From assembly GCA_013285735.1 (NCBI GenBank), contig JABDGZ010000008.1, positions 3,372 to 52,836 of the forward strand: DNA of 49,465 bases, written 5' to 3'. This document shows, in pieces, positions 4,466 to 27,212 of the stretch (position 1 is the first letter of the stretch; every line of letters starts with the position of its first letter). A program made the position numbers and the translations under genes. This stretch comes from Candidatus Omnitrophota bacterium (GTDB lineage Bacteria; Omnitrophota; Gorgyraeia; Zapsychrales; Fredricksoniimonadaceae). The notes below the pieces were generated by a model. That model did not search any database. It was given only the letters and a program-made list of their open reading frames with translations, and was not told the DNA's origin.

Positions 4466-5359
4466 TCATCTGTCTACTGCTTTTTTTATTACACCAACTA
4501 ATCCAGGATCAACGGCGTATCCTAATGCAGCAGCTTTCTGTAAATCACCCCACGCCTTCCTATATTCCTTCAACTGATAATAGACAATGGCCCGATCATT
4601 ATACGCCTGGGCTATCTGAGGATTTATTTCAATGGCTTTAGTAAAGTCATACCTGGCTTGAGCAAGGTCATCCTGTTCAACATAAACACTTCCCCGATTA
4701 GCATAACTTTCTGCATATTGGGGATTTAACTCAATGGCTTTACTAAAATCATTAATAGCGTCTATAAACCTACCTTGGCCCTCGTAACATATCCCCCGAT
4801 TATAATAAGCTTGGGCAAGAGCAGGATCTAATTCAATGCTTTTACTCAAATCAGCGATGGCTTGAGTTAAATCACCCTGTTTTTCCAGGGTGATTCCACG
4901 ATTGTGATAACTTTCCGCGTAATCAGGATTTATTCTAATGGCTTGGGTAAAATCAGAAACTGCTTGAACTGTATTGCCCTGGCTAGCAAAGGCAAGGCCG
5001 CGATTGTAATAGGTACTGGCGTCCTGGGGATTTTTTTCAATAATTTTATTATAGTCAGCAATGGCTTGTGTGAAATTATTTTGACTTATATAGGCACCAG
5101 CCCTGGCCTCATAAACCCCTAGATCGTCTGGGTTAATTTTAATAGCTTCGCTAAAATCAGCAATAGCTTTAGTGCTATTGCCCTGCTTCTGCCATAAAAT
5201 ACCACGATCATAATACGCATCTGCAGAACGGGGGTTTATCGCAATGGCCCTGTTTAAATCTTCTATGGTTGGAGGGTGATTATCATCGAAGGCAAAACCC
5301 CATGAAGCACTGAAGAAAACCATGGTTGCCAACAAAAAAGATTGCTGAAAAGTTTTCAT
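4466..5359 (-). CDS. Secreted TPR-repeat protein
   Basis: A 297-residue protein: signal peptide (MKTFQQSFLLATMVFFSASWGFA) then about seven consecutive 34-residue TPR units with the pattern AYYNRGxxxxxQGxxxxAIxDFxKAIxINP, covering residues ~30-275. TPRs form a superhelical scaffold for protein binding; in the periplasm such proteins often organise envelope complexes. The ATG at 5359 overlaps the stop of the upstream outer-membrane-factor gene (ATGA), so I prefer it to an in-frame ATG six codons earlier. It appears to be the last gene of the efflux operon, although its role there is unknown. Confidence 0.8.
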   Translation of the reverse strand: MKTFQQSFLLATMVFFSASWGFAFDDNHPPTIEDLNRAIAINPRSADAYYDRGILWQKQGNSTKAIADFSEAIKINPDDLGVYEARAGAYISQNNFTQAIADYNKIIEKNPQDASTYYNRGLAFASQGNTVQAVSDFTQAIRINPDYAESYHNRGITLEKQGDLTQAIADLSKSIELDPALAQAYYNRGICYEGQGRFIDAINDFSKAIELNPQYAESYANRGSVYVEQDDLAQARYDFTKAIEINPQIAQAYNDRAIVYYQLKEYRKAWGDLQKAAALGYAVDPGLVGVIKKAVDR

Positions 5360-9700: not shown

Positions 9701-9878
9701 CCATGGTCTCCGGGCTTGCCCCTGGTAGGGACGCTGAAACGCTGATGGTTGGAAAATCAATTTGTGGCAAGGTGGACACAGGTAAAAAACCAACAGCAAC
9801 CAAACCGGCAAGGACCAACCCCACCGTCAACAAAGTGGTCGCAATAGGTCTTTCAATAAATGGTGTTGATATACTCAT
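6786..9878 (-). CDS. RND efflux transporter subunit, MdtC-like
   Basis: Inner-membrane proton-driven exporter of 1030 residues, the full RND length. It starts [20 protein letters not shown] (TM1), followed by a porter domain, the TM4 proton-relay pair in [20 protein letters not shown], a second porter domain, and the TM10 lysine in [18 protein letters not shown]. These match the MdtB/MdtC subfamily rather than AcrB. It is clearly paralogous to the gene upstream (9875-12976), from which it begins with a four-base ATGA overlap. In E. coli MdtB and MdtC form a B2C heterotrimer, so the same is likely here; substrates there include bile salts and novobiocin, but substrates here cannot be read from sequence. 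Confidence 0.93.
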
Positions 9879-12800
9879 TTATTCCCTGTTCCTTGACTCC
9901 CGCTAGGTTGTAACCCCAAACGTTTGCCTACCCGATCAAACCACAGATAAATAACCGGAGTCGTATATAGCGTGAGTACTTGACTGAAAATAAGTCCACC
10001 GATAATAGTTATGCCCAATGGTTGTCTAAGTTCTGCCCCCATGCCTCCGCCAAAAGCCAAAGGCACGGCACCGAGCATCGCTGACATGGTTGTCATCATA
10101 ATCGGACGGAACCGCAAAAGACAGGCCTGATAAATAGCATCCGACGGTGTTTTCCCTTCCTGGCGTTCGGCTTCCAAGGCAAAGTCCACCATCATGATGC
10201 CGTTTTTCTTGACGATACCGATCAAAAGGATGATGCCGATCAAAGCAATCACGCTTAAATCCGTACGGAAAATCAACAGAGACAAGATGGCTCCGACACC
10301 TGCCGATGGCAAGGTAGAAAGAATAGTGAGCGGATGAATATAACTTTCATACAAAACACCCAACACAATATAGACCGTGATCAGGGCCGCCAGGATCAAG
10401 ATCGGCTCATTACTTAAAGACGATTGAAAAGCCTGCGCCGTGCCCTGGAATTGACCACTAATACTGCCAGGCAAACCCATATTTTGGGTGGTCGATTGAA
10501 TAGCCTTGACCGCGTCTCCCAGCGATACCCCAGGCGCCAGGTTAAATGATAAGGTCACCGCCGGAAATTGCCCCAAATGGCCGACAACCAAAGGCCCCGT
10601 CGTATTCGTCATTTTGGAAATCACGTCGAGCGGTACTTGCGCACTTCCAGAACCGCGCACATAAAGATTGTGCAATTTATTAGGATTCTTTCTAAAATCA
10701 GGCTTTACTTCGAGAATGACCCGGTATTGATTTAACTGGGTAAAAATCGTTGATACTATCCGCTGGCCATAAGCACTATAAAGAGTACTGTCAATCACCG
10801 ACGGTGTTACACCAAGCCTAGAGGCGGTCGCACGGTCAATCACCAACGAAGCCTGCAATCCCTTGGCCTGTTCATCGCTGCCGACATCGCGTAACTGCGG
10901 CAAAGCACTCAGGGCATCAACCACCTTGGGCGCCCAATCATTAAGCTCGTCGCCATTAGGGTCTTCCAAGGTGTACTGGTATTGGGTACGGCTGACCGTA
11001 TCATCAACCGTCAGATCCTGCACCGGCTGCATATATAACGTGATCCCTTTGACACTCTTTAAACTTTCCTGCAAACGCCGGATAAGGTCAGTAGCAGAAA
11101 TTCTACGTTCGTCGACAGGCTTGAGATTGATCAATATCCTGCCGCTGTTAAGAGTGGTATTAGTTCCGTCGACACCAATAAATGTTGAAAGGCTGTCAAC
11201 TGCGGGATCTTTCAGGATCACAGCAGCCAATTGCTGTTGGCGCTTTGCCATCGCCGGAAATGATATTGATTGAGGCGCTTCGGAAATGCCCTGAATAATG
11301 CCTGTATCTTGGATCGGAAAAAATCCTTTGGGGATAAAAACATACAACAGCACTGTAAAAATGAGCGTTCCCAAAGCCACCATCAAGGTCAGGCTCTGAT
11401 GCTTCAATACCCATTGCAGGGATTGACCATACTTTTCAATGGTACGATTGAAGATCTTTTCAGACGCATGATAAAACTTTCCTTGTTTTTCCGGTGGAAT
11501 ATGTTTCAATAATTTGGCGCACATCATCGGTGTTAAGGTCAAGGACACGATCGCTGAAATGACAATCGTCACGCCGAGAGTCACGGCAAACTCACGGAAC
11601 AAACGCCCCACCACATCTCCCATAAACAGCAACGGAATAAGTACCGCGATCAAAGAAATACTCAAAGACATGATGGTAAAAGCCACCTGCGCCGAACCTT
11701 TAAGAGCGGCTTCGTGGGGAGACATCCCCTGCTCAATATACCTGGAAATATTTTCAATCATGACAATCGCGTCATCCACCACAAAACCCGTTGCTATAGT
11801 CAACGCCATCAAGGACAAATTATTGAGGCTGAAGCCCAACAGATACATCGCTCCAAAAGTCCCCACTAATGATACGGGGACCGCAATACTGGGAATGATC
11901 GTCCCGGCCAAGGTACGCAAAAATAAAAAAATGACCATCACGACTAAAGCGACGGCTAAGGTGAGCTCAAACTCAACATCCCTGACTGAGGCACGGATGG
12001 TCGTGGTCCTGTCGGTCAATACTGAAACCTGTACAGAGGCAGGAAGGGAAGATTCCAACTGGGGCAACATTTTCTTGATGCTGTCAACAACTTGGATAAC
12101 ATTAAAGCCAGGCTGACGTTGGATGTTAATAATCACTGCCGGAGTTTTGTTCATCCAGGCTGCTTCTTTGGTATTTTCAACGTCATCAATGACATCGGCA
12201 ACATCAGTTAATAATACCGGAGCTCCATTTTGATAAGCAACTACCAATTTCCGGTAGTCTTTACTGGATTTAAGTTGATCATTAGCGTTAATGATAGAAG
12301 ATTGTCGGGGTCCGTCAAAACTACCCTTGGCCTGATTGACATTGGCGGCACCAATAGCCGTACGCAAATCTTCCACGGTCAGCCCGTAAGAAGCTAATGC
12401 CGTCGGGTTAGCCTGGACCCTCACAGCTGGTCTTTGCCCGCCGCTGATACTGACAAGACCTACCCCTGACAGCTGGGAAATTTTCTGGGCCAAACGGCTG
12501 TCAGCCAAATCCTCAACCTGGGGTAAAGGCATGATATTTGAAGTCAAGGCCAAGGTCAGAATCGGCGCGTCAGCCGGGTTTACTTTACTATAAACTGGAG
12601 GATTGGCCAGGTCTGCCGGTAATAAATTAGCCCCCGCATTGATAGCAGCCTGTACTTCCTGTTCGGCGATATCAATATCCAGGCTTAAACTAAATTGTAG
12701 TGTGATGACTGAAGATCCGCCAGAAGAGGTGGAGCGCATCTGTTGCAAACCCGGCATTTGCCCGAATTGGCGTTCCAGAGGAGCAGTAATGGCGGTGGAC

Positions 12801-12976
12801 ATGACATCAGGACTGGCCCCAGGGTAAAAAGTAACTACTTGAATGACAGGATAGTCAACCTGAGGTAAAGCGGAGATAGGAAGTTGAAAATAAGCAACAC
12901 CACCGGCGAGAAGAATGGCCACCATCAATAAGACGGTTGCCACCGGCCGCATAATAAATATGCGGGAGGGGTTCAT
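9875..12976 (-). CDS. RND efflux transporter subunit, MdtB-like
   Basis: 1033-residue RND protein beginning [20 protein letters not shown] (TM1), with the [19 protein letters not shown] relay motif in TM4 and [20 protein letters not shown] in TM10. MdtB typically starts with the FIxRPVATxLLM block seen here. It is the first of two adjacent RND genes and partners the membrane-fusion protein upstream (overlap ATGA at 12973-12976) and the MdtC-like subunit downstream. All proton-relay residues appear present, so there is no sign that either copy is inactive. The assignment as MdtB versus MdtC rests on order and N-terminus, so treat those labels as approximate. Confidence 0.92.
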
Positions 12977-14193
12977 GCACCATCTCCAGGAGTTGATGTT
13001 CCTGAAGAAGGACTTTTATGTTTATGGGCAGAGGCCACTTTAACCTTGCTGCCCTCTTTTAATTTATCAGCTCCTTCAACCACCACCACCTCACCCGCTG
13101 ACAATCCGTCCTGAATAGCTATGTTATCTTCTTGGGTTGCACCAGGGGTAACTTCGCTCACCGTCACGGTATTATCTGCTTTGACAACAAAAACAAAACT
13201 ACCTTGAGGGCCTTGTTGTATCGCAGCCACCGGTACGATCACAGCACCTTTGTCGACATCGACGAGCAGATGAATATTAACAAACTGATTGGGAAACAAA
13301 GCATCATCTTTATTATCAAAAATCGCTTTCAGCTTGACTGTACCCGTAGTTGGATCAATCTGGCTGTCAACAGCAAGCAAATACCCCGTCGCTATTTTCT
13401 TTGTTTCTTCACGATTATAGGCTTCCGCGACTAATTTCTCTCCCGCTTGATATTTACTAAGCACTTGCGGAAGATTATCCTCGGGAATAGCAAAAACAAC
13501 GGTGATAGGCTGCAGTTTGGTAATGACGGCCAAACCAGTAGTATCGCTGGGGGTCACCATATTACCGGCATCTTCCAGACGTAATCCGATTTGTCCGCTG
13601 ATGGGCGCTGTGACATGAGCATAGATCAATTGCAGTTTAGCATTATCTACTTGGGCCCCATCAACCTTAACTGTCCCTTCATACTGATGGACTAAAGCAC
13701 CCTGGGTATCCAACTGTTGTTTGGGTATGGAATCCTGAGAGAATAAAACCTGGTAACGCGCCAAGTCTAATTTGGCATCATCCAGTAAAGCTTGATCATG
13801 GGCTAATTGTCCCTGGGCCTGGGCCAATTGTATTTCAAAGGGGCGGGTGTCAATTAACGCTAGTAAGTCACCTTGCTTGACAAGCTGTCCTTCATTAAAG
13901 AACACCTTCATTATTTGCCCACCAACGAGGTATTTGACAGTGACTGTATTAAGGGGAGTGACAGACCCTAGCCCATTAAGATAAATATTAATATCACCAA
14001 TCTTTGCCGTCGCTGTCACAATAGGCGAATCACTGGGGGCACGCCCACCTTTACCATGCTTGCCCGTTTGAGATGAGTCGGTAGATGCCTGAGGTCTGGG
14101 CCAAAACTTATAAGCAACAAAAGCAACCAAACAAAGAATAATCAAAAACCATATCCAACGAGAGGAATGCTTCTTAGACAATTTATTCTCCAA
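12973..14193 (-). CDS. RND membrane-fusion (adaptor) protein, MdtA-like
   Basis: Periplasmic adaptor linking the RND pump to the outer-membrane factor. The 406-residue protein has an N-terminal membrane anchor ([19 protein letters not shown]) without a lipobox, a lipoyl/barrel-sandwich half ([30 protein letters not shown]), a coiled-coil hairpin, the second half ([17 protein letters not shown]) and beta-barrel plus membrane-proximal domains ([19 protein letters not shown]). It starts with TTG at 14193: there is no nearby ATG, and GGAGG lies six bases upstream, within the Gly codons that end the preceding Spy-like gene. Three bases separate the two genes. Confidence 0.92.
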
Positions 14194-14195
14194 AT

Positions 14196-14618
14196 CTAAC
14201 CTCCGCCGCCATTACTACTGCCTTCTGTACCTCCTGAGCCACCACCTTCACCTGTGCCGTTATCGCTGCTTGGCCTATGCCGCATCTGCTTCTGCATTTC
14301 TTTCCATTGACTCATTTGATCTGCACTAAGCACTTGGGACAATTCTTGCCCCTCATCTTCTCTCAACTGTTTCATTTGACTGCGCATGCTGTCGCGATCG
14401 GCAGTCCCGTCTTCCATATTTTGCCGAAGCTCTTCACGCTTGGAAGAATACTTTTCAATGATAGGTGTAATAGCCGTGACTTGATCCTGGGTCAAATTTA
14501 ATTTGGATTGCATCTTCGCGACAATATCATCAGCGCTCGGCGACTGGTCTTGCGCCAAAACAGGCAATGTTGATAAACTCAACATCATCAGGCAAGCCCA
14601 GATCATCTTCATACCCAT
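14196..14618 (-). CDS. Spy/CpxP-like periplasmic protein 2
   Basis: A 140-residue protein with signal peptide ([22 protein letters not shown], cleavage before QDQ), a helical core with LTxxQ-like motifs ([11 protein letters not shown] and [12 protein letters not shown]) and a Gly/Ser-rich tail ending in GGGG. It is a paralogue of the protein at 3686-4099. The reading frame is open further upstream, into the end of the preceding spy gene, but ATG 14618 has GGAGAA eight bases upstream and begins the signal peptide. It lies between the two efflux systems, directly upstream of mdtA. Spy-family proteins bind unfolded proteins or metals in the periplasm and some act as stress sensors. Confidence 0.82.
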
Positions 14619-14658
14619 ATTATATTCTCCATTCTTAAATAATGATGATGATTTCAAT

Positions 14659-15210
14659 TTATTTTTCATCTTCTTCGTGTTCTTTATTGCCCCAATGCTT
14701 ATGACCATCTCCTTCTTTACCACACCCGTCCTTATGACCAAACCTACGATGCCCTTGCTTCATCAAATCTTCTGCTTTTTCCAGAGCCATGTACCCTGCG
14801 AATTGCTCAGGGGTCAGGAGCTTCTTGATATCCAAAATAAAACTTAAATGATTGTCAACCATCTGGGATTGAATAGCTTTTAGCTGAGCTTGAAGATCAT
14901 TGATCTTGGACATATCCGCTGTACTTTTGACAATTTCTGCTTCAAACGCTTCCCTATTAGCCTTCATCTGTTCAAAAATGCCTTTCTTGGCATCTCTTTG
15001 TTTTTGTTTAATATCCTTCAACTGCTTTGCTTGGTCTTCGCTCAGGTTAAGAATTTTGACCATCATATGTTCCTCGTGGGCCTGATGCCAATTACCTTCT
15101 TGAGGAGAAGCAACGGGAACAACTGCATTATCTGCCCAAACCAATCTTGGCGCAATCAACAACGCTGCTGTTGCCATCATTAAACCTAAAATCTTTGTCT
15201 TTGCTAACAT
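14659..15210 (-). CDS. Spy/CpxP-family periplasmic protein with His-rich tail
   Basis: A 183-residue protein with signal peptide (MLAKTKILGLMMATAALLIAPRLVWA) and a helical, charged core with two family-type motifs, LNLSEDQAKQLKDIK and LTPEQFAGYM. The C-terminal ~25 residues are rich in His, Lys, Gly and acidic residues, with one Cys (GHRRFGHKDGCGKEGDGHKHWG), suggesting metal binding as in ZraP/CnrX-type relatives. GGGGG lies seven bases before ATG 15210. It follows the AcrB-type pump genes after an 85-base gap and precedes the second Spy-like gene, so it probably shares their transcript and envelope-stress role. Confidence 0.85.
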   Translation of the reverse strand: MLAKTKILGLMMATAALLIAPRLVWADNAVVPVASPQEGNWHQAHEEHMMVKILNLSEDQAKQLKDIKQKQRDAKKGIFEQMKANREAFEAEIVKSTADMSKINDLQAQLKAIQSQMVDNHLSFILDIKKLLTPEQFAGYMALEKAEDLMKQGHRRFGHKDGCGKEGDGHKHWGNKEHEEDEK

Positions 15211-15295
15211 ATAAACCCCCTGTTTTTTTGTTCATTGCCTTTTTTGTTCTTCACTTACTTAGACAATAAACAACGTAAAAAAGTTTCACATTTCT

Positions 15296-16684
15296 TTATG
15301 AAGACCATCCGCCACCGAGGGCTTTATAAAGAGAAATAAGATTGGTCAGACGATCAACGCTCACCTGAATGAGATTTTCCTGTGCGCTATACAGGTCCTG
15401 CTGGGCTAAAAGGAGGGTCAGATAACTGTCAATGCCATTATGATACCGGGCGCCTTCTAAATCATACCGCGCCTGCTGAGCATTAACTAAATCCCGCTGG
15501 GCCTTGATTTGTTCATTTAACGTGTCACGGGCCACCATCGCATCGGAAACTTCACTGAAGGCAACTTGAATGGCCTTTTCATATTGGGCAATGGCAATCC
15601 GTTTGGCTACCTCGGCAGCATTTAAATTGGCAAAATTAGTACTTTGATTAAAAAGCGGCAAAGAAATTTGCGGAGAAAAACTCCAAACTTGAGACCCGGA
15701 AGTAAATAGTTTAGTTAATTTTACAGTAGCTGTCCCGTCAGAGGCAGTTAAAGTGAGACTAGGGAAAAATGCCGCTCGCACAGCACCTATATTAGCGTTA
15801 GCTGCTTTGAGTTGATGCTCAGCTTCCAAAATATCCGGACGACGCTCAAGTAGATCTGAAGAAAGACCCACGGGTAAATCTTCTATTAATTGTTGACTCG
15901 CAAGGGGCATCCCAGCTAAAAAATCGGAAGGTATAGGCTGGCCGATCAAAAGAACCAAAGCATCTTCGGCCTGAGCACGTTGACGTTCATCATTGGCAAT
16001 AGCAACTTTAACTGTTTGGACTTGGGTTTGGGCCAAACGTAAATCTAATGCAGAGGCATTTCCCAATTGATAACTTTTATCAATTAAATCATAATACGAC
16101 TCAACCGATTTAAGCGTCTGTTCTGATAAATCCAATTGTTCATCCAAGGCACACACCGTCAAATATTGAACCGCTACTTCTGCCACTAAGGTAATTCGAG
16201 CAGCGCGAAAGGCTTCTTCTGTCGCCAAATATTGTTCCAAGACCTGAGCCTTAAGGCTGCGGATATTCCCAAACAAATCAACTTCATAAGACGTGTTTAC
16301 ACTGGCCCCATAATTACGTAAATTGGCATAGTCATTATTAGTGAGCAATTCACGTTCACGGACACCAGAAGCATTGATTGCAAAACTCGGCAAAAAAGCA
16401 TACTGCACAATACGGTATTGGTCGCGGATCTGCTGTACATTTAAAAGGGCCACCCGGTAATCACGGTTATTATTTAAAGCCAGCTCAATAAGTTTCTGCA
16501 AACGCGGATCTTTAAAAAACTCCTGCCAGCCGATATCAGAAGCCATTGTCTTACCCGACGGAGTTTTGGAATTGGTGTAAGGAAATTGGGCCGGTACAGG
16601 TAAAGCTGGGCGGGTATAATGAGGAATCAAGGTGCATCCTGTTAATCCCAAACTCAAAATTATAGAAAAAATGAATTTATTCAT
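15296..16684 (-). CDS. NodT-family outer-membrane factor of the AcrAB-type pump
   Basis: TolC-fold outer-membrane channel, 462 residues. Signal peptide with lipobox (MNKFIFSIILSLGLTGCTLIP), then blocks typical of OprM/NodT proteins: DIGWQEFFKDPRLQKLIELAL, EVDLFGNIRS, LLIGQPIPSDF, LPVGLSSDLLERRPDILEAE, ANANIGAVRAAFFPSLTLTA and a C-terminal LGGGW. It starts inside the end of the AcrB-type gene (ATGA overlap 16681-16684), so pump and channel are co-translated. It is not especially close to the other OMF (5356-6789) and lacks that protein's Gly/Ser insertion. Confidence 0.94.
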   Translation of the reverse strand: MNKFIFSIILSLGLTGCTLIPHYTRPALPVPAQFPYTNSKTPSGKTMASDIGWQEFFKDPRLQKLIELALNNNRDYRVALLNVQQIRDQYRIVQYAFLPSFAINASGVRERELLTNNDYANLRNYGASVNTSYEVDLFGNIRSLKAQVLEQYLATEEAFRAARITLVAEVAVQYLTVCALDEQLDLSEQTLKSVESYYDLIDKSYQLGNASALDLRLAQTQVQTVKVAIANDERQRAQAEDALVLLIGQPIPSDFLAGMPLASQQLIEDLPVGLSSDLLERRPDILEAEHQLKAANANIGAVRAAFFPSLTLTASDGTATVKLTKLFTSGSQVWSFSPQISLPLFNQSTNFANLNAAEVAKRIAIAQYEKAIQVAFSEVSDAMVARDTLNEQIKAQRDLVNAQQARYDLEGARYHNGIDSYLTLLLAQQDLYSAQENLIQVSVDRLTNLISLYKALGGGWSS

Positions 16685-19600
16685 TTTGGTTTCTCTGTTG
16701 TCTTTGGCATAAAAACGCGCCGCACAGCGACATAAAATACGGGTACCATGAAAATAGCTAAAACGGTAGCTGTAAACATCCCGCCCGCGACACCTGTGCC
16801 AATGGCATGCTGGCTAGCAGAACCAGCACCTGTGCTTAACGCCAGCGGTGTCACTCCTAAAATAAAGGCGAACGAAGTCATCAAGATAGGACGAAGACGC
16901 AAATGCACCGCCTCAAGGGTCGCCTCGACTAATCCTTTACCTTCCTTTTGGAGGTCTTTGGCAAATTCGACGATCAAGATGGCATTCTTCGTCGAAAGGC
17001 CAATAATAGCCAAAAGGCCTACTTTAAAATAAATATCATTGGGCAGACCACGCATCGAGGCAGCTAACAATGATCCAATCACCCCCAAAGGTACAACCAG
17101 AATGACGGCAAAAGGAATTGACCAGCTTTCATAAAGGGCAGCCAGGGCCAAAAACACGACGATGATAGACAACGTAAAGAGCGCCGGGGCCTGGGCACCT
17201 GCCAGGCGTTCTTCATAGGACTGACCTGTCCATTCAAAACCGATCCCTGAAGGCAATTGCTTGATTAGCTCTTCCATGGCTTTCATAGCATCACCAGTAC
17301 TTTTACCGGGAGGTGCTGCACCGACAATCTCCACGGCTGGAAAACCGTTATAACGCTGCAATTGCGGGGAGCCATAGGTCCATTGGGTTGATACCAAACT
17401 GGACATGGACACCATCTGACCTTGACTGTTGCGTACAAATACCTTGTTGATGTCCGAAGGTAACATGCGAAAAGGCGCATCCAACTCGATAATCACCCTT
17501 TGCACGCGATTGCCATGCACAAAATTATTCACATAAAAAGAACCAAAGTAAGCTTGCAAGGCGGTATTAAGATCTGTTAAGGACACGCCTAAGGCGCTTG
17601 TCTTAGCTTTGTCGACGATGATTTTTAATTGCGCCGCATCTTCCAGGCCCTGCATGCGCACGCCCATGAGACTAGGGTCCTTGGCCGCCAAGCCCATCAA
17701 TTGATCACGCGCCGCCATGAGCTTATCATGGCCTAAACTGGCCTGGTCTTCCAATTGCAAATCAAAACCTGAAGAAACACCTAATTCCGGGATAGGCGGC
17801 AGGTTAACAGGAAAAATGATGGCGTCCCTGATCTGGGAAAAAGCACCAAAGGCCCGACGGATAATGGCCGGCGCCTTGTGCTCATCGCCTGGACGCTGGT
17901 CCCAGTCTTTAAGACGAATGAATGACAATGCCGAATTTTGCCCGCGGCCGTTGAAGCTAAAACCTGCCACCGTGATGATCTTATCCACCTCAGGCTGGGC
18001 CATGAAATATTTCTCTACCTTCTTTAATACCGCCAAGGTCCTCTCCTGAGTTGCCCCAACGGGCAATTGGATATTGGTGATAAAATATCCCTGGTCTTCT
18101 TCAGGCAAAAATGAGGTGGGCATACGCATATAAAAAATGGCCACGGCCGCGATGATGAAAAAATAAACTATAAAGTAGCGTCCGGTGGTTTGCAGCATGC
18201 GGCCTACCATGCTTTGATATTTATTGCGGCCAGACTCGAAGCCCCGATTAAAAGCACCGAAAAACCCTTTTTTCCCATCATGCTGCCCCTTGTTCACTGG
18301 TTTTAAAATAAGGGCACAAAGTGCTGGCGTTAACGACATGGCTAAAAAGATGGAAAAGAGCATCGAGGCTACCAGGGAGAGAGAAAATTGCTTATAGATG
18401 GCACCAACTGACCCGCTAAAAAACGCCATGGGAATAAATACCGCAGTTAACACCAGGGAAATACCAATCAAAGCACCTGTGATCTGTTCCATGGCCTTGT
18501 AAGCAGCTTGCTTAGGTGTTAGGCCTTCATCACGCATCAGGCGCTCAACGTTTTCCACCACCACAATGGCATCATCGACGAGAATACCAATAGCCAAGAC
18601 CATGCCAAAAAGGGTCAACACATTGATGGAAAAACCAAAGGCTTTCATCACTGTAAAGGTGCCCATCAAGGCCACAGGCACAACAGTGGTTGGGATGATG
18701 GTGGTGCGCATGCTTTGCAAAAATAAATACATGACGCAAAACACCAGGAAGATGGCAATCAGCAGGGTCTTGATGACTTCCTGCACGGAAATCCGTACAA
18801 AACGCGATTGGTCTAAAGGATAATCGACCTTCACCCCAGGTGGGAAAAACTTGGATAACTGTGTCACCTTAGCATGCACCGCATCCGCCGTGGCAATCGC
18901 ATTGGCTTCGGGCGACAATTTGATGGCCACCGCAGCCGACGGGTAACCATTGGTGCGGGCACGGGTAGAATAATCCAGACCACCGAGAGAAGTTCTAGCC
19001 ACATCGCGCAAATACACCCTGGAGCCATCGGGATTGACCCGCAAAATAATATTGTCAAATTCCTCCGGCGTACGCAAGGTGCTTTGGCCTTGCAAACTGA
19101 CATTAAGCTCCTGGCCCTTGACAAAGGGACGGTCGCCTAATTGGCCTAAGGGAAGTTGCACGTTCTGGTTGCTAATGGCATTGATGATATCATCAACGGT
19201 CAAATTATACGCATAGAGCTTCTGGGGATTCATCCAGATACGCATGGCATTTTCCGTGCCAAACATATTGGCCTCACCCACCCCGGAAACCCGACGGATA
19301 GGATCAAGCACGCTTGAGGCAATGTAATTGCCTAAGGAAATCTCATCCATACTGCCATTGGGTGTGGACAATGTAAAAAACATCAGATAATTGCGCGTGG
19401 ATTTAGTGACAGTGACCCCTGCCTGCTGAACTAACAGGGGCAAACTAGGAATGGCCAATTGCAATTTATTTTGCACCTGCACTTGGGCGACATCTGGATT
19501 GGTGCCTGGCTCAAAATAAATCATGATCTGCGACTGGCCAATGGAATTACTAGTGGAAGCCATATAAAGCAGATTATCAATACCACTTATCTGCTGCTCG

Positions 19601-19794
19601 ATGATGGAGGTCACCGTATTTTGCAGCACTTCAGCAGAAGCACCGGCGTAGGTGGATGTAATAGTAATAGAAGGCGGCGCTACACTAGGGTATTGGGCCA
19701 CCGGCAACTGAGAAATGGAAGTGATGCCAACCAAGACGATCAGCAAGGCGATAACGATGGCAAAAATAGGTCGATCAATAAAGAATCTAGCCAT
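16681..19794 (-). CDS. RND efflux transporter, AcrB/MexB (HAE1) type
   Basis: Inner-membrane multidrug exporter of 1037 residues, close to E. coli AcrB (1049). It begins MARFFIDRPIFAIVIALLIV, the classic HAE1 start, and has the AcrB-type IEQQISGIDNLLYMAS stretch, the TM4 relay [19 protein letters not shown] and TM10 lysine in IIGLSTKNAILIVEFAKDL. As a homotrimer it should export amphiphilic drugs, dyes, detergents or solvents to the adaptor and channel encoded on either side. The start codon shares one base with the stop of the adaptor gene (TAATG). Identification of type is secure; substrates are unknown. Confidence 0.95.
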   Translation of the reverse strand: MARFFIDRPIFAIVIALLIVLVGITSISQLPVAQYPSVAPPSITITSTYAGASAEVLQNTVTSIIEQQISGIDNLLYMASTSNSIGQSQIMIYFEPGTNPDVAQVQVQNKLQLAIPSLPLLVQQAGVTVTKSTRNYLMFFTLSTPNGSMDEISLGNYIASSVLDPIRRVSGVGEANMFGTENAMRIWMNPQKLYAYNLTVDDIINAISNQNVQLPLGQLGDRPFVKGQELNVSLQGQSTLRTPEEFDNIILRVNPDGSRVYLRDVARTSLGGLDYSTRARTNGYPSAAVAIKLSPEANAIATADAVHAKVTQLSKFFPPGVKVDYPLDQSRFVRISVQEVIKTLLIAIFLVFCVMYLFLQSMRTTIIPTTVVPVALMGTFTVMKAFGFSINVLTLFGMVLAIGILVDDAIVVVENVERLMRDEGLTPKQAAYKAMEQITGALIGISLVLTAVFIPMAFFSGSVGAIYKQFSLSLVASMLFSIFLAMSLTPALCALILKPVNKGQHDGKKGFFGAFNRGFESGRNKYQSMVGRMLQTTGRYFIVYFFIIAAVAIFYMRMPTSFLPEEDQGYFITNIQLPVGATQERTLAVLKKVEKYFMAQPEVDKIITVAGFSFNGRGQNSALSFIRLKDWDQRPGDEHKAPAIIRRAFGAFSQIRDAIIFPVNLPPIPELGVSSGFDLQLEDQASLGHDKLMAARDQLMGLAAKDPSLMGVRMQGLEDAAQLKIIVDKAKTSALGVSLTDLNTALQAYFGSFYVNNFVHGNRVQRVIIELDAPFRMLPSDINKVFVRNSQGQMVSMSSLVSTQWTYGSPQLQRYNGFPAVEIVGAAPPGKSTGDAMKAMEELIKQLPSGIGFEWTGQSYEERLAGAQAPALFTLSIIVVFLALAALYESWSIPFAVILVVPLGVIGSLLAASMRGLPNDIYFKVGLLAIIGLSTKNAILIVEFAKDLQKEGKGLVEATLEAVHLRLRPILMTSFAFILGVTPLALSTGAGSASQHAIGTGVAGGMFTATVLAIFMVPVFYVAVRRVFMPKTTEKPK

Positions 19795-20942
19795 TAGGTC
19801 CCTGTATTATCTATAAACGGCACGGGTTTGACAGTTGCTCCTGGCCGCACCTTTTGCAAGCCATCTACAATCACGGTCTCTCCTGCCTTTAGTCCGTCAA
19901 TCACGATCCATGAATCACCTACCGCCTGTCCTAATTTCAAAACTCGCGCTTCAACCGTATTGTCCGCCTTGACCACCATCACCGTTGCTGTGCCATCTCC
20001 TTGCAAGGCCACGGCCCGCTGCAGTACGCTGATAGCGTTTTGATTGATGGCTTCTTCAAATTGGACATTGGCAAACATGCCCGGCAATAAAATGCGGTCA
20101 GGATTGGAGAATTCCGCACGCAAGGTGACCATGCCTGTGGAAGGATCAACTGTCACATCCTTAAAAAGCAGCTTGCCTGGCTGGTTGTAAGTGCTACCAT
20201 CGTCCAAAACCAAGGTGACCTTGGCTTCATCCGTGGAAAGTTTTTGCAATTGCCCTTTATCAAACATGCTTCTCAACTTTAAAAGATCAGTGCTGGATTG
20301 TGTGAAATCAAAATAAATGGGATCAAGCTGCTGGATTACCGCTAACTGGGTAGCATCATTTTGGCTGACCAGGGCCCCTTCAGTGACCTTGGCCTCACCA
20401 ATTTTACCGGAAATAGGTGCTGTCACCGTCGCATAACCAAGATTTAAAGAAGCTGTCTCAAGAGCTGCTTGGGCAGTCTCGACATCAGCCTGGGCTTGCA
20501 AGGCAGCTGCATAGGCATCATCATAATCTTGCTTACTCACCGCGTTAATGGCCACCAACTGCTTATAACGATCAGCTTTTGCCTGCATCTGTGTCAAGGT
20601 CGCCTGGGCCCGGGCCAAACTTGCCTTGGCGCTGTCAAGGGCGGCTTGCAAAGGTGCCGGGTCAATTTGGAACAACACATCACCTTCATTGACCTCAGAG
20701 CCTTCTGTAAATGATCTTTTAAGCAGGATGCCTGTTGCCCTTGCCCTTACATCGGCAATTCGTTCAGGGTCGATTCTTCCAGGAAGTTCGACAGTCACAG
20801 GCATATTTTGGGAGCTGATTGTAATTACCCCCACTTCCGGTGGAGGCATCTGCATGGGCGCGCTTGGCTTAGAACTGCAACCAGCTAAAACTCCAAAAAA
20901 CAATACGAAAACTGATACTTTGAATGTTTTATAAGGTTGCAT
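19794..20942 (-). CDS. RND membrane-fusion lipoprotein, AcrA/MexA type
   Basis: Adaptor of the AcrB-type pump, 382 residues. Lipoprotein signal (VSVFVLFFGVLAGCSSKPS), then VGVITISSQNMPVTVELPGR, barrel-sandwich halves (ARATGILLKRSFTEGSEVNEGDVLFQIDP and YATVTAPISGKIGEAKVTEGALV), an alpha-hairpin of ~70 residues, and a beta-barrel domain (FKDVTVDPSTGMVTLRAEF). All are typical of AcrA/MexA. It follows marR by 28 bases. A 12-base palindrome ATAGTTAACTAT (20941-20952) overlaps the start codon, and the nearest purine-rich site, AAAGGA, is 11 bases upstream, so initiation may be weak or coupled. Confidence 0.94.
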   Translation of the reverse strand: MQPYKTFKVSVFVLFFGVLAGCSSKPSAPMQMPPPEVGVITISSQNMPVTVELPGRIDPERIADVRARATGILLKRSFTEGSEVNEGDVLFQIDPAPLQAALDSAKASLARAQATLTQMQAKADRYKQLVAINAVSKQDYDDAYAAALQAQADVETAQAALETASLNLGYATVTAPISGKIGEAKVTEGALVSQNDATQLAVIQQLDPIYFDFTQSSTDLLKLRSMFDKGQLQKLSTDEAKVTLVLDDGSTYNQPGKLLFKDVTVDPSTGMVTLRAEFSNPDRILLPGMFANVQFEEAINQNAISVLQRAVALQGDGTATVMVVKADNTVEARVLKLGQAVGDSWIVIDGLKAGETVIVDGLQKVRPGATVKPVPFIDNTGT

Positions 20943-20970: not shown

Positions 20971-21411
20971 TTATTTTGTATTCTCATAAATTTGATGTAG
21001 CACTGATTTACATGTTTCTATGTCCTTGATTTTAATAGACTTTTGAGCCTCAATAAGAGTTTTTTGGATGACTATAACCAGCTTTTCCTGCAAATCCTGG
21101 CCCTTTTTTGTCAGATAAATGAGCTTTTGCCGGCGGTCATTTTTATCCGGAATACGGACAACCAGGCTATGCTTCTCCATATTATCGATGAGACGGGTCA
21201 CACTGGTTTTATCCTTACAGATAAGCCCTGCCAATTCCTGCTGGCTTTGGCCATTTTTCTTACCCAAATTGACCAACACAGACCATTGCTCGCAAGTAAC
21301 ATCATAGCCTGCTTGCGCAAAATTACGGTTGACCAAGGCCCCTAATGAACGCGTGGCCCGGCCCATGGCGTAACCTAATGATTCTTCAAGTATGTATTTT
21401 TGTTGTGGCAT
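20971..21411 (-). CDS. MarR-family transcriptional regulator of the efflux operon
   Basis: A 146-residue winged-helix repressor. The central part shows the MarR pattern: TCEQWSVLVNLGKKNGQSQQELAGLICKDKTSVTRLIDNMEKHSLVVRIPDKNDRRQKLIYLTKKG, with the wing motif DKNDRR. MarR proteins dimerise, bind short palindromes, and release on binding small phenolic or drug-like ligands. It is the first gene of the AcrAB-type operon and its own promoter holds a palindromic site (21420-21433), so autoregulation together with the pumps is the natural reading. I choose ATG 21411; a TTG at 21432 is in frame but would sit on the transcription start. There is no clear Shine-Dalgarno sequence. Confidence 0.92.
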   Translation of the reverse strand: MPQQKYILEESLGYAMGRATRSLGALVNRNFAQAGYDVTCEQWSVLVNLGKKNGQSQQELAGLICKDKTSVTRLIDNMEKHSLVVRIPDKNDRRQKLIYLTKKGQDLQEKLVIVIQKTLIEAQKSIKIKDIETCKSVLHQIYENTK

Positions 21412-21419
21412 AATTTTTA

Positions 21420-21433
21420 GTTGTATATACAAC
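21420..21433. promoter_or_regulatory. Palindromic operator, probable MarR site
   Basis: GTTGTATATACAAC, a perfect 14-base palindrome that begins about one base after the predicted transcription start and ends nine bases before the ATG of marR. Size and position suit a MarR dimer that blocks the promoter. Confidence 0.75.
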
Positions 21434-22633: not shown

Positions 22634-22984
22634 TCACCCTTGCTTCGCCACTGGACTCGCACGATACATGATAACATTAACTTTCTCCAGGGTGATAAGT
22701 CCCTCGGCAACCATCTCATCGAGATGAGGCAAAAATGCCATAATTTTTTCTTCACTATCGACAATTTCGACAATCATCGGAAGATCCTCAGACAATCTTT
22801 CTAATTTTGCCGTATGCATATGGCTCTTACAACCAAAACCCATGCATCCTTTAATAACGGTGGCCCCAGCCATCTTTTCTTTTCTGGCATCATTAACAAT
22901 AGCTTCATACAACGGCAAGCCATGCCACTTATCCTGTTCACCAATAAAAATTCGTAATAATTTACCTTCTGCTGGTATTTTCAT
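22634..22984 (-). CDS. DUF190-family protein (fluoride-channel-associated)
   Basis: A 116-residue soluble protein beginning MKIPAEGKLLRIFIGEQDKWHGLPLYEAIVNDAR and including GATVIKGCMGFG and LPMIVEIVDSEEKI, the DUF190 family pattern, which resembles PII-like ferredoxin-fold proteins. DUF190 genes are commonly next to crcB/fluC, as here (one base separates them). The fold and pairing suggest a regulator of the channel, but the molecular role is not established. Two Cys (GCMGFGC) near residue 50 could be redox- or metal-sensitive. Confidence 0.88.
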   Translation of the reverse strand: MKIPAEGKLLRIFIGEQDKWHGLPLYEAIVNDARKEKMAGATVIKGCMGFGCKSHMHTAKLERLSEDLPMIVEIVDSEEKIMAFLPHLDEMVAEGLITLEKVNVIMYRASPVAKQG

Positions 22985-22985
22985 A

Positions 22986-23360
22986 CTAAATGATCTCCCC
23001 TAACAAAACCCCAAGCCTAAAAACAATAAAGCCCAGGATAACACTCAAGATAACGTTTAAAAATGCCCTTAATGTTTCTCCGTCTCTGATCAGATTACCT
23101 GTCTCGAGCATAAAGGTTGAAAAAGTCGTAAAGGCACCGCAAAAACCAGCCATTAAAAAAATCCTTAAAACAGGGCTAAAAAGAAATTTTTCCTGAAAAA
23201 TGGTGTCGAAAAGTCCAATTAAAAAACAGCCAATCAGATTAACAATCATGGTCCCATAAGGAAAATCCGTACCGATTTTCTGATAAACTGCCCCGGCAAG
23301 TATATACCGTGCGAGGGTCCCTAAAATGCCTCCCCCAATCAAATAAAACCATTTTTCCAT
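22986..23360 (-). CDS. crcB: Fluoride ion channel FluC/CrcB
   Basis: A 124-residue, four-helix membrane protein that dimerises in antiparallel fashion to export fluoride. Diagnostic motifs: GGILGTLARY near the start, GTMIVNLIGCFLIG in TM2, and GFCGAFTTFSTF in TM3 (the Phe box and Thr/Ser lining the pore). The frame is open to an ATG at 23381, but that ATG comes from a dispersed palindromic repeat (23375-23401); ATG 23360 fits the family start. I looked for a fluoride riboswitch upstream and saw none; only the repeat lies between this gene and its upstream neighbour. Confidence 0.94.
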   Translation of the reverse strand: MEKWFYLIGGGILGTLARYILAGAVYQKIGTDFPYGTMIVNLIGCFLIGLFDTIFQEKFLFSPVLRIFLMAGFCGAFTTFSTFMLETGNLIRDGETLRAFLNVILSVILGFIVFRLGVLLGEII

Positions 23361-23374
23361 ATAATTCTTCTCTT

Positions 23375-23401
23375 CTGTCATTCCCGCGAAAGCGGGAATC
23401 C
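23375..23401. repeat. Dispersed palindromic repeat, family A, copy 2
   Basis: 27-base element with the inverted core ATTCCCGC GAAA GCGGGAAT. Intergenic, between the four-helix membrane protein gene and the fluoride channel gene. It supplies a spurious in-frame ATG upstream of crcB. Confidence 0.85.
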
Positions 23402-23404
23402 AAT

Positions 23405-23920
23405 TTACCTAACTTCTATAACATCTACATCTATAATATCTCTTTTCCCCTGATTCCGCGAGTTTAAACTTAACAACCATTGGCTATAGAATCTCATCCC
23501 ATAAGTAAAGCAGATAAATAATGATAAATGCCCTGCAAAGGCCCAAGAACCTTTAAGTAAAGCCCCGGCGATAGCAATAGGTGCTAAAAACTGAAATAAA
23601 AAAGCCAAGAATATTCCCACCAGTCCAAAGGTTTTGATGACAAAGAAAAAAGACATCATCCATGTGGCAACCCCCAAGGCATGAGACATCAGATCAGCAT
23701 ACATCGCCAGAGAAGGCCTAAGATTCTTTAAAAAAGATGCTGGCAGGATACCCAAAACAAAAAGGATGATCAATGCATAGGAAAGGACTAACAATAGCGG
23801 CAAAAGCAATTCCACTGCCTTTGTTATCCCCCAAAAGAAAATGGATAAAAAAAGAACCACCCCTGCAATAAAAAATAGGGAAACCGCAAACCCTTTTAAT
23901 CCTGTGTATACCTTTATCAT
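23405..23920 (-). CDS. Small polytopic membrane protein of unknown function
   Basis: I do not recognise this 171-residue protein. It has about four hydrophobic segments (residues ~10-32, ~36-58, ~80-125 likely as two, ~128-148) and a polar C-terminal tail ending in DIIDVDVIEVR, with no Cys pairs or enzyme motifs. It starts with a four-base ATGA overlap with the Kir-channel homologue, so the two proteins are made together, and it may be an accessory subunit of that channel. The C-terminal tail after a cluster of basic residues (SRNQGKRD) is predicted to be cytosolic. Confidence 0.65.
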   Translation of the reverse strand: MIKVYTGLKGFAVSLFFIAGVVLFLSIFFWGITKAVELLLPLLLVLSYALIILFVLGILPASFLKNLRPSLAMYADLMSHALGVATWMMSFFFVIKTFGLVGIFLAFLFQFLAPIAIAGALLKGSWAFAGHLSLFICFTYGMRFYSQWLLSLNSRNQGKRDIIDVDVIEVR

Positions 23921-24822
23921 TTTACCGAAACCTGAAGCTCATGCAGGTCATGAATGCCTTTTAGATCAATATGGACCTTTTTATCATGCCATACAATGAT
24001 GTCTTTAAAACGTTTATTGTAGACAATATCTTCTATCGAATAGCTGTGGCGGGCAATGATAGGTTGTGAAAAAGTTTCATCAATACCGGTCAGGGACGCC
24101 AAGATACCCATCTGGGCTTCCCGCATTTTTCCTTCATCCATTCCCAACAGAGGACTCTTCTCATCGATATAATGCCGCACCGTCCAGCTTAAAGCAAATA
24201 AAGGCGTATGATCGCGCTCCAACTTAAGATCATAAAATTTGCGGGTAGATTCCCCCTCCAAGCTGACCTCATTTTTAGTCAAGTGAAGCGTCATATGTGC
24301 TTCAGCAATTTGATTTAAACGTTCATTAGCTATCCTGAAAAAATAGCATAATTTACCGTTATGTTGCCCGATAATCGCTTTATTGCTAAAAATAATCCTC
24401 GCCGTGGCCCTTGAAAAACGAGCGTAAAATAAACCTGTAATAACAGCCAGGGTCAGCAATCCTAAAAATGCCTGCATAGTCATTAAAATATGCGCCACGG
24501 CACTTGCTGATTCAACTTTACCAAAATCAACAGCACTCATATTTTCTACGCTAAAAAACACACACCGTAAAAAAGAAGCATACACCCCGCAAAAAAAATA
24601 CAAGACACCAAAAAACAAATTCATCAAAGTATAAATGGCAGCAACATGGATAAAAAATTTAGGCCAGGATAGTGAGAAGAAATAATGATAGAGGTCTGCA
24701 AAAGGATTCTGACGATCACGCGTACCGTGAACATTTATCCTTCCCTGTTTATTGATCAGGGCGCGAAAATGAAAGGATTGTGGATGTAATGACTTATGTG
24801 ATGAATCTGGATTTGAGGCCAT
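23917..24822 (-). CDS. Inward-rectifier (Kir/KirBac-like) channel homologue with altered selectivity filter
   Basis: A 301-residue protein with the KirBac layout: N-terminal slide region (NPFADLYHYFFSLSWPKFFIHVAAIY), TM1 (~54-78), pore helix plus filter (~87-102), TM2 (~108-133) ending in the conserved LFYARFSRATARIIFS, and a C-terminal IRK immunoglobulin-like domain (~145-297) that includes LCYFFRIANERLNQIAEAHMTL, LSWTVRHYIDEKSPL and YSIEDIVYNKRFKDI. In K+ channels the filter reads TxGYG; here the aligned stretch is S96-A-V-D-F-G-K102, with Ala, Asp and Phe replacing Thr, Gly and Tyr. The fold is therefore Kir-like, but K+ selectivity is doubtful. It is co-translated with a four-helix membrane protein. 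Confidence 0.88.
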   Translation of the reverse strand: MASNPDSSHKSLHPQSFHFRALINKQGRINVHGTRDRQNPFADLYHYFFSLSWPKFFIHVAAIYTLMNLFFGVLYFFCGVYASFLRCVFFSVENMSAVDFGKVESASAVAHILMTMQAFLGLLTLAVITGLFYARFSRATARIIFSNKAIIGQHNGKLCYFFRIANERLNQIAEAHMTLHLTKNEVSLEGESTRKFYDLKLERDHTPLFALSWTVRHYIDEKSPLLGMDEGKMREAQMGILASLTGIDETFSQPIIARHSYSIEDIVYNKRFKDIIVWHDKKVHIDLKGIHDLHELQVSVK

Positions 24823-24854
24823 AGGCTTTTTATTTACGGTTAGGGAAAAAGCCT
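24823..24854. repeat. Inverted repeat between the FeoA-like and Kir-like genes
   Basis: Perfect 9-base arms AGGCTTTTT and AAAAAGCCT with a 14-base loop. It spans the stop of the FeoA-like gene and ends at the Kir-like start codon. It could fold in mRNA and control initiation of the channel gene. Confidence 0.5.
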
Positions 24855-25097
24855 AACCTTGATATGATCTGCTTGCTGCTTGCATAAAGAAATAAAATAC
24901 CCGCGAATTTTAATCTCTATAGAATCTCCCGCAGGCGAAAAACACACAACCTCCAGCTGTTCACCAGGAAACACCCCCGCTTCCTGGGTACGTTCACCAT
25001 TCTCCGTATCAAAAGAAAAAGCAACAACCAAGGCCTTTTGTCCGATAGACAAACTGCTTAAAACAACTAACCCTTTGTCATTTTCCGATATATTCAT
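24840..25097 (-). CDS. FeoA-like SH3-fold protein
   Basis: An 85-residue protein whose C-terminal half matches the FeoA beta-barrel: RTQEAGVFPGEQLEVVCFSPAGDSIEIKIRGYFISLCKQQADHIKV, corresponding to the family pattern L...G..PG..v.v....pggdPi.i...G..i.L....A..I.V. Free-standing FeoA domains usually accompany FeoB ferrous-iron transporters, but no feoB is visible here; instead it precedes the Kir-like channel by 17 bases. It may serve as a cytosolic regulator in this operon. It starts with ATG 25097, with AAGGA-like purines (TTGCAGAGG) upstream. Confidence 0.78.
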   Translation of the reverse strand: MNISENDKGLVVLSSLSIGQKALVVAFSFDTENGERTQEAGVFPGEQLEVVCFSPAGDSIEIKIRGYFISLCKQQADHIKVRLFP

Positions 25098-25222: not shown

Positions 25223-25250
25223 ATTCTACTGAAAAGCCCTGAATTGTCAA
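25223..25250 (-). promoter_or_regulatory. Sigma70-type promoter of tRNA-Phe and probably the downstream seven-gene unit
   Basis: -35 TTGACA (25245-25250, consensus), 16-base spacer, -10 TAGAAT (25223-25228). Predicted +1 near 25216 gives a ~20-base leader before the tRNA. The -35 overlaps the stop codon of the upstream galT-like gene. Confidence 0.8.
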
Positions 25251-26245
25251 CTCGAAGCTTCTCTTAAGTAACGGGCGGCATCTTGAGGGAAGGTGGGGAC
25301 AATATGTAATCCTGTTCCCCACTCAAAACCAACACTGCGGGTCAACTTCGGGATAATTTCGATATGCCAATGATAACACGCCATATTTCCATACCCGATG
25401 GGAGCCGTATGCAAATAATAATTATAGGAAGGGTTGCCTAAAACTTTTTTGACCCTTTTAAGCACATCCTGCAAAATTTGTGCCAAATGCGCCTGTGTCG
25501 ATTCATCGGCATTAGAAAAATCCGCACTGTGCCCTTTAGGGATGATCCAAGTTTCAAAAGCATAACGCGGTGCGTAAGGACAAAAGGCTAAAAAACTGGT
25601 ATTTTCCACGACGATGCGCTCTTTATCCTGGTATTCTTGAGAAATCATATCACAAAAAACACAACGGCCGCGGTATTGATGATAATGCTCCGCACCTTTC
25701 AATTCTTCCAGCACTGTTTTAGGGACCATGGGCAAAGCAATGATCTGACTGTGGGTGTGCTCAACAGTGGCTCCGGCAGAAGAACCATAATTCTTAAAGA
25801 TCATCACATATTTAAAACGCCTGTCCTTGGACAGATGACGAAAACGATTTTGGTACTGACTAATCACTGCCTGCATTTCTTCTGATGTGAATTCGGTAAG
25901 GTTTTTATCATGCTCTGGGCCTTCGATCAAAACTTCATGAGCGCCAATGCCGGTCATCTGGTCATAAATACCATAGCCTTCTTTTTGAAGTGATCCATCC
26001 GAACTCAAAACCGGAAATTTATTAGGCACTGTCCGCACCAGCCATCCAGGCGTATTGGCAAGACTATTAACGGGACGCACAGCGTCAACTTCCTGCGGTG
26101 TCTGATGCTCACGTCCGGGACAAAACGGGCAAATCGCCTGATGGGTGGGCGTATTATCATCTTTAGAAAAATCTAACGGCCCTTTGGAGTGATCATCAAG
26201 GATCATCCAGCGCCCGACAACCGGATCTCTTCTTAACTCAGGCAT
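25247..26245 (-). CDS. galT: Galactose-1-phosphate uridylyltransferase-like protein (catalytic copy)
   Basis: GalT transfers UMP between UDP-glucose and galactose-1-P (Leloir pathway) through a uridylyl-histidine. The 332-residue protein starts MPELRRDPVVGRWMI and shows zinc ligands C39-x-x-C42 and H112 (GPEHDKN), the conserved VRTVPNKFPVL, the active-site H163-T-H165-S-Q with nucleophile H165, and the C-terminal YHWHIEIIPKLTR. Length and order match the family. Its start overlaps the end of the second GalT-like gene by eight bases; ATG 26245 is chosen because it matches the family start and follows GAGAGG. Relatives of GalT also act on other sugar-1-phosphates, so the sugar is not certain. 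Confidence 0.88.
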   Translation of the reverse strand: MPELRRDPVVGRWMILDDHSKGPLDFSKDDNTPTHQAICPFCPGREHQTPQEVDAVRPVNSLANTPGWLVRTVPNKFPVLSSDGSLQKEGYGIYDQMTGIGAHEVLIEGPEHDKNLTEFTSEEMQAVISQYQNRFRHLSKDRRFKYVMIFKNYGSSAGATVEHTHSQIIALPMVPKTVLEELKGAEHYHQYRGRCVFCDMISQEYQDKERIVVENTSFLAFCPYAPRYAFETWIIPKGHSADFSNADESTQAHLAQILQDVLKRVKKVLGNPSYNYYLHTAPIGYGNMACYHWHIEIIPKLTRSVGFEWGTGLHIVPTFPQDAARYLREASS

Positions 26246-27212
26246 GAATATCAACCTCTCTTAAAAAAGCAGCCGTCATCTCCGGCGGGATAGGACAAAT
26301 ATAAAAACCAGTGCCACGCTCAAAACCAGCCACCCGCGTTAATCTGGGCATGACTTCAATATGCCAATGATAATAATCTTTAAACGAGGACGGATTTTTG
26401 ACCGGAGAGGTCTGTATCATATAATTATACGCAGGGTCGTTTAAGCCTATTTTAAAACGCAATAAAATATCTTTCATAATGGCTGCGAGTGAATCCTCAT
26501 ATCCTTTGATTCCCTCGGCAAAATCACAGTGATGATGCTTAGGAAGAATCCAGGTCTCAAAAGGAAAGCGTGAGGCAAAAGGAGTAATAACCAAAAAATG
26601 CTCGTTCTGGGCAACCACACGGTCCTTGCTCTTTAACTCCTGAGTGATGATATCGCAAAACAAACAGCGTTCATGATAATCAAAATATTTCTCAGCTCCG
26701 CTGATTTTATCCTGGACGCGCATGGGCAAAACCGGCACGGCCATGATCTGCGAACGGCTATGTCCTATATTACGGCTGCCGGCGGCAACGCCATAATTCT
26801 TATACGCTAAAATATATTCAATGAATGGATTCTTACGGTGTGTTTGCATACGCAAGGCGTAGGTTTGGAAGACCGCTTTGATCTGTTCTGACGACAAATC
26901 CGCCATGTTCGGAATATGTTCAGGCGTTTCTACGACGATTTCATGACTGCCGTAACTATGGGCCACATCATAAAGTCCGTGCCCGCGGCGCTCAAAAGGT
27001 TTGCTTTCATCTAAAATGGGATCATTGCTATTAATGACCTTCACCCCATGGGCTTCATAGACAGAGGGGGAATTTGTATCCTGACAATACGGACACTCCT
27101 TCTGGTCTGTGACGGTGGATTTAGGATCCACAAAGGCTGCTGGACGCCGGGCGCGTTCAGTCGCGACGATGGTCCAACGGCCAACTATGGGGTCTTTTCT
27201 AAGTTGAGACAT
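26238..27212 (-). CDS. GalT-like protein lacking the nucleophilic histidine
   Basis: A 324-residue tandem homologue of the gene below it: MSQLRKDPIVGRWTIVATER, C40-x-x-C43, H99 (TPEHIPN), YILAYKNYGVAAGS, and a C-terminal YHWHIEVMPRLTRVAGFERG. The active-site motif, HxHSQ in the partner, reads H151-S-R153-S-Q: the uridylylated His is Arg (codon CGT, one transition from CAT). The VRxVPNxFP block is also degenerate (VKVINSNDPIL). It should not form the covalent intermediate. GalT is a dimer whose active sites contain residues from both chains, so a heterodimer with the intact copy is one explanation; a different, non-transferase role is another. No Shine-Dalgarno sequence; a promoter lies directly at the start codon. 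Confidence 0.87.
   Translation of the reverse strand: MSQLRKDPIVGRWTIVATERARRPAAFVDPKSTVTDQKECPYCQDTNSPSVYEAHGVKVINSNDPILDESKPFERRGHGLYDVAHSYGSHEIVVETPEHIPNMADLSSEQIKAVFQTYALRMQTHRKNPFIEYILAYKNYGVAAGSRNIGHSRSQIMAVPVLPMRVQDKISGAEKYFDYHERCLFCDIITQELKSKDRVVAQNEHFLVITPFASRFPFETWILPKHHHCDFAEGIKGYEDSLAAIMKDILLRFKIGLNDPAYNYMIQTSPVKNPSSFKDYYHWHIEVMPRLTRVAGFERGTGFYICPIPPEMTAAFLREVDIHA

Follow-up and report, generated by a model that had tools for sequence, protein, structure and literature searches.

Within a 49,465-nucleotide stretch of DNA from a Candidatus Omnitrophota bacterium (the window), we identified a gene for a protein of the inward-rectifier (Kir) fold in which the first glycine of the K+ selectivity filter is replaced by aspartate, as it is in every Kir-bearing genome sampled from the genus. 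The protein probably works like the NirBac channels, as a Kir-gated, Na+-permeable cation channel that is not selective for K+, a reading to which we give a probability of about 0.6.

The Kir-fold protein and its filter

The open reading frame at 23917-24822 of the minus strand encodes 301 amino acids from an ATG start, with no internal stops, in a draft genome (G000) that is 71% complete. Its product matched the Pfam families IRK_C (PF17655; residues 143-297; E value 2.8e-28; 99.2 bits against a cut-off of 22.5) and IRK (PF01007; E value 1.1e-5; 25.8 bits against a cut-off of 22.7), and the presence of transmembrane IRK and cytoplasmic IRK_C domains in a single chain is the arrangement of the prokaryotic inward-rectifier (KirBac/IRK) fold. 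In a phmmer search of the PDB the nearest solved relative was KirBac3.1 (E value 1e-54), aligned across residues 22-293. By architecture, the protein thus belongs to the prokaryotic inward-rectifier family, as the first-pass annotation had proposed, and by its reading frame and alignments it is a full-length, undamaged member of it. An AlphaFold2 model built from four sequences had a mean pLDDT of 40 and was unusable in the pore region. The parts of the gene were placed as follows.

23917..24822, minus strand: Kir-fold channel gene with replaced K+ filter (open reading frame; PF17655 and PF01007; KirBac3.1 match)
24592..24705, minus strand: slide helix (residues ~40-50) and first transmembrane helix (~53-77) (KirBac3.1 alignment; low-confidence AF2 model)
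24517..24534, minus strand: filter codons GCT GTT GAT TTT GGT AAA, residues 97-102, A-V-D-F-G-K (sequence; alignments)
24526..24528, minus strand: Asp99 codon GAT, at the first glycine position of TxGYG (alignment; codon comparison)
24400..24501, minus strand: second transmembrane helix, Gly hinge and Y-A-R-F motif kept (alignment; pN/pS ~0.06)
23932..24399, minus strand: cytoplasmic Kir (IRK_C) domain (PF17655)

The slide helix, both transmembrane helices, the pore helix and the cytoplasmic domain all align with those of KirBac3.1 and KirBac1.1. Unlike those channels, which have TIGYG, the window protein reads A-V-D-F-G, and its pore-helix Thr and the Pro after TM2 are replaced by Asn and Ala. 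In the phmmer alignment ATIGYGK of KirBac3.1 pairs with SAVDFGK, and the codons at 24534-24517 bore out the earlier reading of the filter as A-V-D-F-G-K, to which the strand (minus) can now be added. The TxGYG signature of KirBac K+ channels was found neither in the window protein (A-V-D-F-G) nor in its clade ([AST]-V-D-[YF]-[GS]). Few residues of K+ channels are as highly conserved as the first filter glycine, and the backbone geometry of the stacked K+ sites is not expected to persist when an L-residue with a carboxylate takes its place.

Columns invariant in five canonical Kirs (KirBac3.1, those of Synechocystis and Caballeronia, and two from Omnitrophota) served as the reference for how far the protein has diverged. 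It deviated at 9 of 56 such columns; the filter contributes 4 invariant columns to the 56, and 3 of these were among the 9 (hypergeometric P ~0.011). The clade of Asp-filter proteins as a whole was altered at only 4 of the 56, with one change each in the slide helix (L49F), the pore helix (T94N), the filter (G99D) and the segment after TM2 (P139A), and because so few of these columns differ clade-wide, the gating parts are kept. By these alignments, the fixed radical change that defines the clade is the replacement of the first filter glycine by aspartate at residue 99. The first-pass annotation had listed Thr, the first Gly and Tyr as lost; the exchange of Gly for Asp is indeed fixed, but the other two are not, since the Thr position varies among A, S and T in the congeners and the change of Tyr to Phe is restricted to the species of the window among the five. 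The Lys flanking the filter, which had been counted as odd, is ordinary: KirBac3.1 has TIGYGK, and for that reason we rejected the idea that this Lys signals a loss of K+ binding.

Conservation in the genus and relatives in the order

The genus was sampled with seven genomes, of which five carried a Kir gene (G000, G001, G003, G004 and G006; 51 to 94% complete) and two did not (64% complete). The five filters read AVDFGK, SVDYSR, AVDYSR, TVDYSR and AVDYGR. Homologues sharing the filter, the search for which had been suggested in the first-pass annotation, were thus present in 5/5 Kir-bearing congeners with the consensus [AST]-V-D-[YF]-[GS]-[KR], preceded in all five by the pore-helix motif S-[VI]-E-N-M. 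Asp99 was invariant, its GAT codon included, and the second filter glycine was also absent in three of the five species. That annotation had also named the pattern that would speak against it, relatives with TVGYG and a change in one genome only; V-D-[YF] was found in every one of the five instead, and a single-genome mutation was rejected on the same ground.

The congener proteins were 73 to 82% identical to the window protein, and synonymous sites were near saturation (pS 0.53 to 0.83). By region, pN/pS was ~0.2 in the pore helix and filter, ~0.06 in TM2, which was the most conserved part of the protein, 0.1 to 0.2 in the cytoplasmic domain and ~0.7 in the loop after the filter. Since the filter value is low against nearly saturated synonymous sites, the new filter is under purifying selection; such constraint alone is no proof of ion passage. 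The absence of stops, the purifying selection and the agreement of the five congeners uphold the earlier view that the gene is not decaying.

Profile searches covered 81 genomes of the order, even samples of the class and of the phylum (384 each, overlapping) and 49 genomes of the class of G110. Kir genes were found in 11 genomes. The Asp filter was present in five of these, a canonical filter in two and a shortened filter in three, and the remaining one (G032) had a fragment without the pore. The canonical filters were those of G036 (SIQTLATIGYGQ) and G110 (SVQTIATIGYGR), and a relative with canonical TIGYG exists in the same order. In the shortened type, the filter is four residues shorter (SVFTLN-GPFNPSG in G015, SVHLLN-GPFTPVG in G038 and SVQLFD-SAFTPSG in G068). 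These three loci (L007/L029, L008/L030 and L020/L031, respectively) belong to three families of the same order, and the remaining protein is intact in each. No match was found in the viral contigs searched, and the nearest relatives of the window Kir among the collections searched were canonical or shortened-filter Omnitrophota Kirs.

The Asp-filter proteins formed one clade (support 100/100), as did the shortened-filter proteins (100/99). Most Kir genes in the order have lost the K+ signature, in two different ways. The branching order of the canonical G036, Asp-filter and shortened-filter types was not separated (AU P values of 0.38 to 0.39), likewise after removal of the filter columns. As judged from these trees, TxGYG was abandoned once or twice, with two distinct filter designs as the outcome. 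Each genome held one Kir gene, including two that are 94% complete; a heteromer with a canonical Kir subunit was rejected, as a second Kir was found in no genome. The host also carries, elsewhere in its genome, a separate channel of the Ion_trans_2 type with a TTVGYG filter.

Gene neighbourhood and the iron-channel lead

On the minus strand of the window, the genes run in the order FeoA-like, Kir, 171-amino-acid membrane protein, CrcB, DUF190 and MORN. The immediate neighbours of the Kir gene are as follows.

24840..25097, minus strand: FeoA-like small protein, upstream of Kir with a 17-bp gap (PF04023, 1.5e-13)
23405..23920, minus strand: hydrophobic membrane protein of 171 amino acids, about four helices, no Pfam match (open reading frame; congener comparison)
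22986..23381, minus strand: CrcB/Fluc fluoride channel gene, downstream (PF02537, 5.7e-29; TIGR00494)
22634..22984, minus strand: DUF190 gene, downstream (PF02641, 2.4e-41)

The ATG of the gene for the 171-amino-acid protein overlaps the Kir stop codon (ATGA), and the two genes adjoin in 5/5 Asp-filter genomes. The family also occurs in genomes without any Kir (G002, G005, G019 and G027), which led us to reject the neighbour as an obligate subunit; its members bear a conserved I-I-D tail motif. CrcB lies near Kir in four of the five Asp-filter genomes and DUF190 follows in three. Four congeners share a conserved run directly upstream of Kir (L024, L025, L026 and L027), made up of 2OG-Fe(II) oxygenase and ELM1-like genes and a gene for a protein of ~650 amino acids that falls in no Pfam family; all three are missing in the window. 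The FeoA-like gene is upstream of Kir in only three genomes (that of the window, G003 and G006), with three genes between in G003 and G006. Elsewhere in the window, inspection by eye picked out a single stretch (5356-20942) in which three large pump genes of the RND type are accompanied by their outer-membrane and periplasmic partners, a MarR-type regulator (20971-21432) and two tandem genes of the galactose-1-phosphate uridylyltransferase type in overlapping frames (25247-27212).

FeoB_C was absent from all five Asp-filter genomes, compared to 15 of the 76 others of the order (Fisher P = 6e-4, for five genomes that form one clade and so are not independent). FeoB was found in the remaining 61 of the 76, including both congeners without Kir, and was retained in genomes with canonical or shortened-filter Kirs. 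The missing FeoB and the FeoA gene adjoining Kir together suggested a pore for divalent ions or iron. Nramp transporters, however, were present in 5/5 Asp-filter genomes and offer a simpler account of the absence of FeoB; this, with FeoA upstream in only three, weakened the idea of an iron channel replacing FeoB.

Proposed function and rival readings

We infer the tetramer, its conduction, selectivity and gating, and its physiological role. In a homotetramer, aspartate at the first filter glycine would contribute four carboxylates, arranged as a ring within or at the pore, and would prevent the stacked-carbonyl K+ sites from forming. Monovalent cations, Na+ included, would pass with little or no selectivity for K+, and gating would fall to three conserved elements, namely the slide helix, TM2 and the cytoplasmic domain. 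A Lys or Arg stands three positions after the Asp in all five congeners and could neutralise the ring.

A non-selective cation channel is the most likely function because of two precedents. NirBac1.1 and NirBac1.2 of Anaeromyxobacter, which lack TxGYG, are tetramers that pass Na+, K+ and Rb+ with little selectivity, and their flux is increased by POPG (PMC4607889); NirBac2.1 of Gemmatimonas has the filter TTGTD (PMC4607889). The window protein has the sequence features of this group, a P-loop without TxGYG in an otherwise retained Kir architecture. Conduction of another ion, which the first-pass annotation had raised without naming a precedent, is likely by analogy with these published channels. 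The window protein differs from them in coming from another phylum, in its filter (A-V-D-F-G versus TTGTD of NirBac2.1; NirBac1.1 and NirBac1.2 are compared by description only), in the retention of the Asp filter across a genus and in having relatives with a second, shortened type. The other precedent is the disease mutant G151E of human GIRK4 (KCNJ5), which is permeable to Na+ and Ca2+ (PMC10745636). There too, an acid replaces the first filter glycine of a Kir channel; G151E is the only alteration in a filter that is canonical in all other respects, whereas the change in the window is natural, fixed and accompanied by further filter changes.

Loss of conduction is the alternative that we weighed most heavily, although we consider it unlikely. 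The scaffold would then persist to sense lipids or ligands, or to partner the adjacent 171-amino-acid protein, and the filter would serve tetramer packing only; a ligand-gated sensor had also been proposed in the first-pass annotation. The constant adjacency of that membrane protein, the highly conserved cytoplasmic domain and the sister clade with a filter four residues shorter and nearly all else kept are consistent with such a role. The filter would be expected to drift, however, yet V-D-[YF]-x-[KR] is fixed; the most conserved part of the protein is the pore-lining TM2; the 171-amino-acid protein exists without any Kir; and NirBacs without TxGYG conduct (PMC4607889). Gene decay, or an error of sequencing or assembly, is scarcely credible: every genome used is an incomplete draft or was assembled from a metagenome, but five species-level genomes agree, stops are absent and purifying selection is strong.

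It is rather improbable that the four-Asp ring is a genuine new filter with selectivity for Na+ or a divalent ion, and hence a case of convergence with Nav and Cav channels. The Asp is invariant down to its codon, GIRK4 G151E lets Na+ and Ca2+ through (PMC10745636), and the layout of T-V-D-Y-S resembles T-L-E-S-W of bacterial Nav channels, with an acid at the first filter glycine position. In NavAb (TLESWSM), the ring of Glu177 lies two residues after Thr, and the change to TLDDWSD makes the channel Ca2+ selective (PMC10120453, PMC3629057). The likeness in the corresponding acid is one of layout only, extending over a few residues and without homology; NavAb and CavAb are voltage gated, and the filter of Nav channels is held by two pore helices, whereas one is expected in Kir. 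Ca2+ is, moreover, not passed by NirBac1.2 (PMC4607889). An iron-related divalent role would be a weak extension of selection by the Asp ring. Retention of a K+ preference through a differently folded filter seems very improbable. TbIRK of Trypanosoma brucei, likewise a Kir-type channel without TxGYG, is moderately K+ selective, with a pK/pNa of over 7 (PMC5429665), but its GGYVG filter is glycine rich and dependent on its glycines, whereas the window protein has Asp at the critical glycine and three of the five species have lost the second glycine as well.

Kir channels without the K+ signature are already known as a class. Our literature search found no paper combining Omnitrophota with a potassium channel, and as far as the literature searched shows, the fixed acidic filter and the series of canonical, Asp and shortened filters within one order are new. 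An acid at the first filter glycine, which causes disease in a human Kir channel, is here naturally fixed in a whole genus. On the reading that we prefer, the NirBac idea would extend to a new phylum and to two further filter designs, and the canonical, Asp and shortened series may serve as a system for asking how Kir selectivity shifts or vanishes while the gating parts persist.
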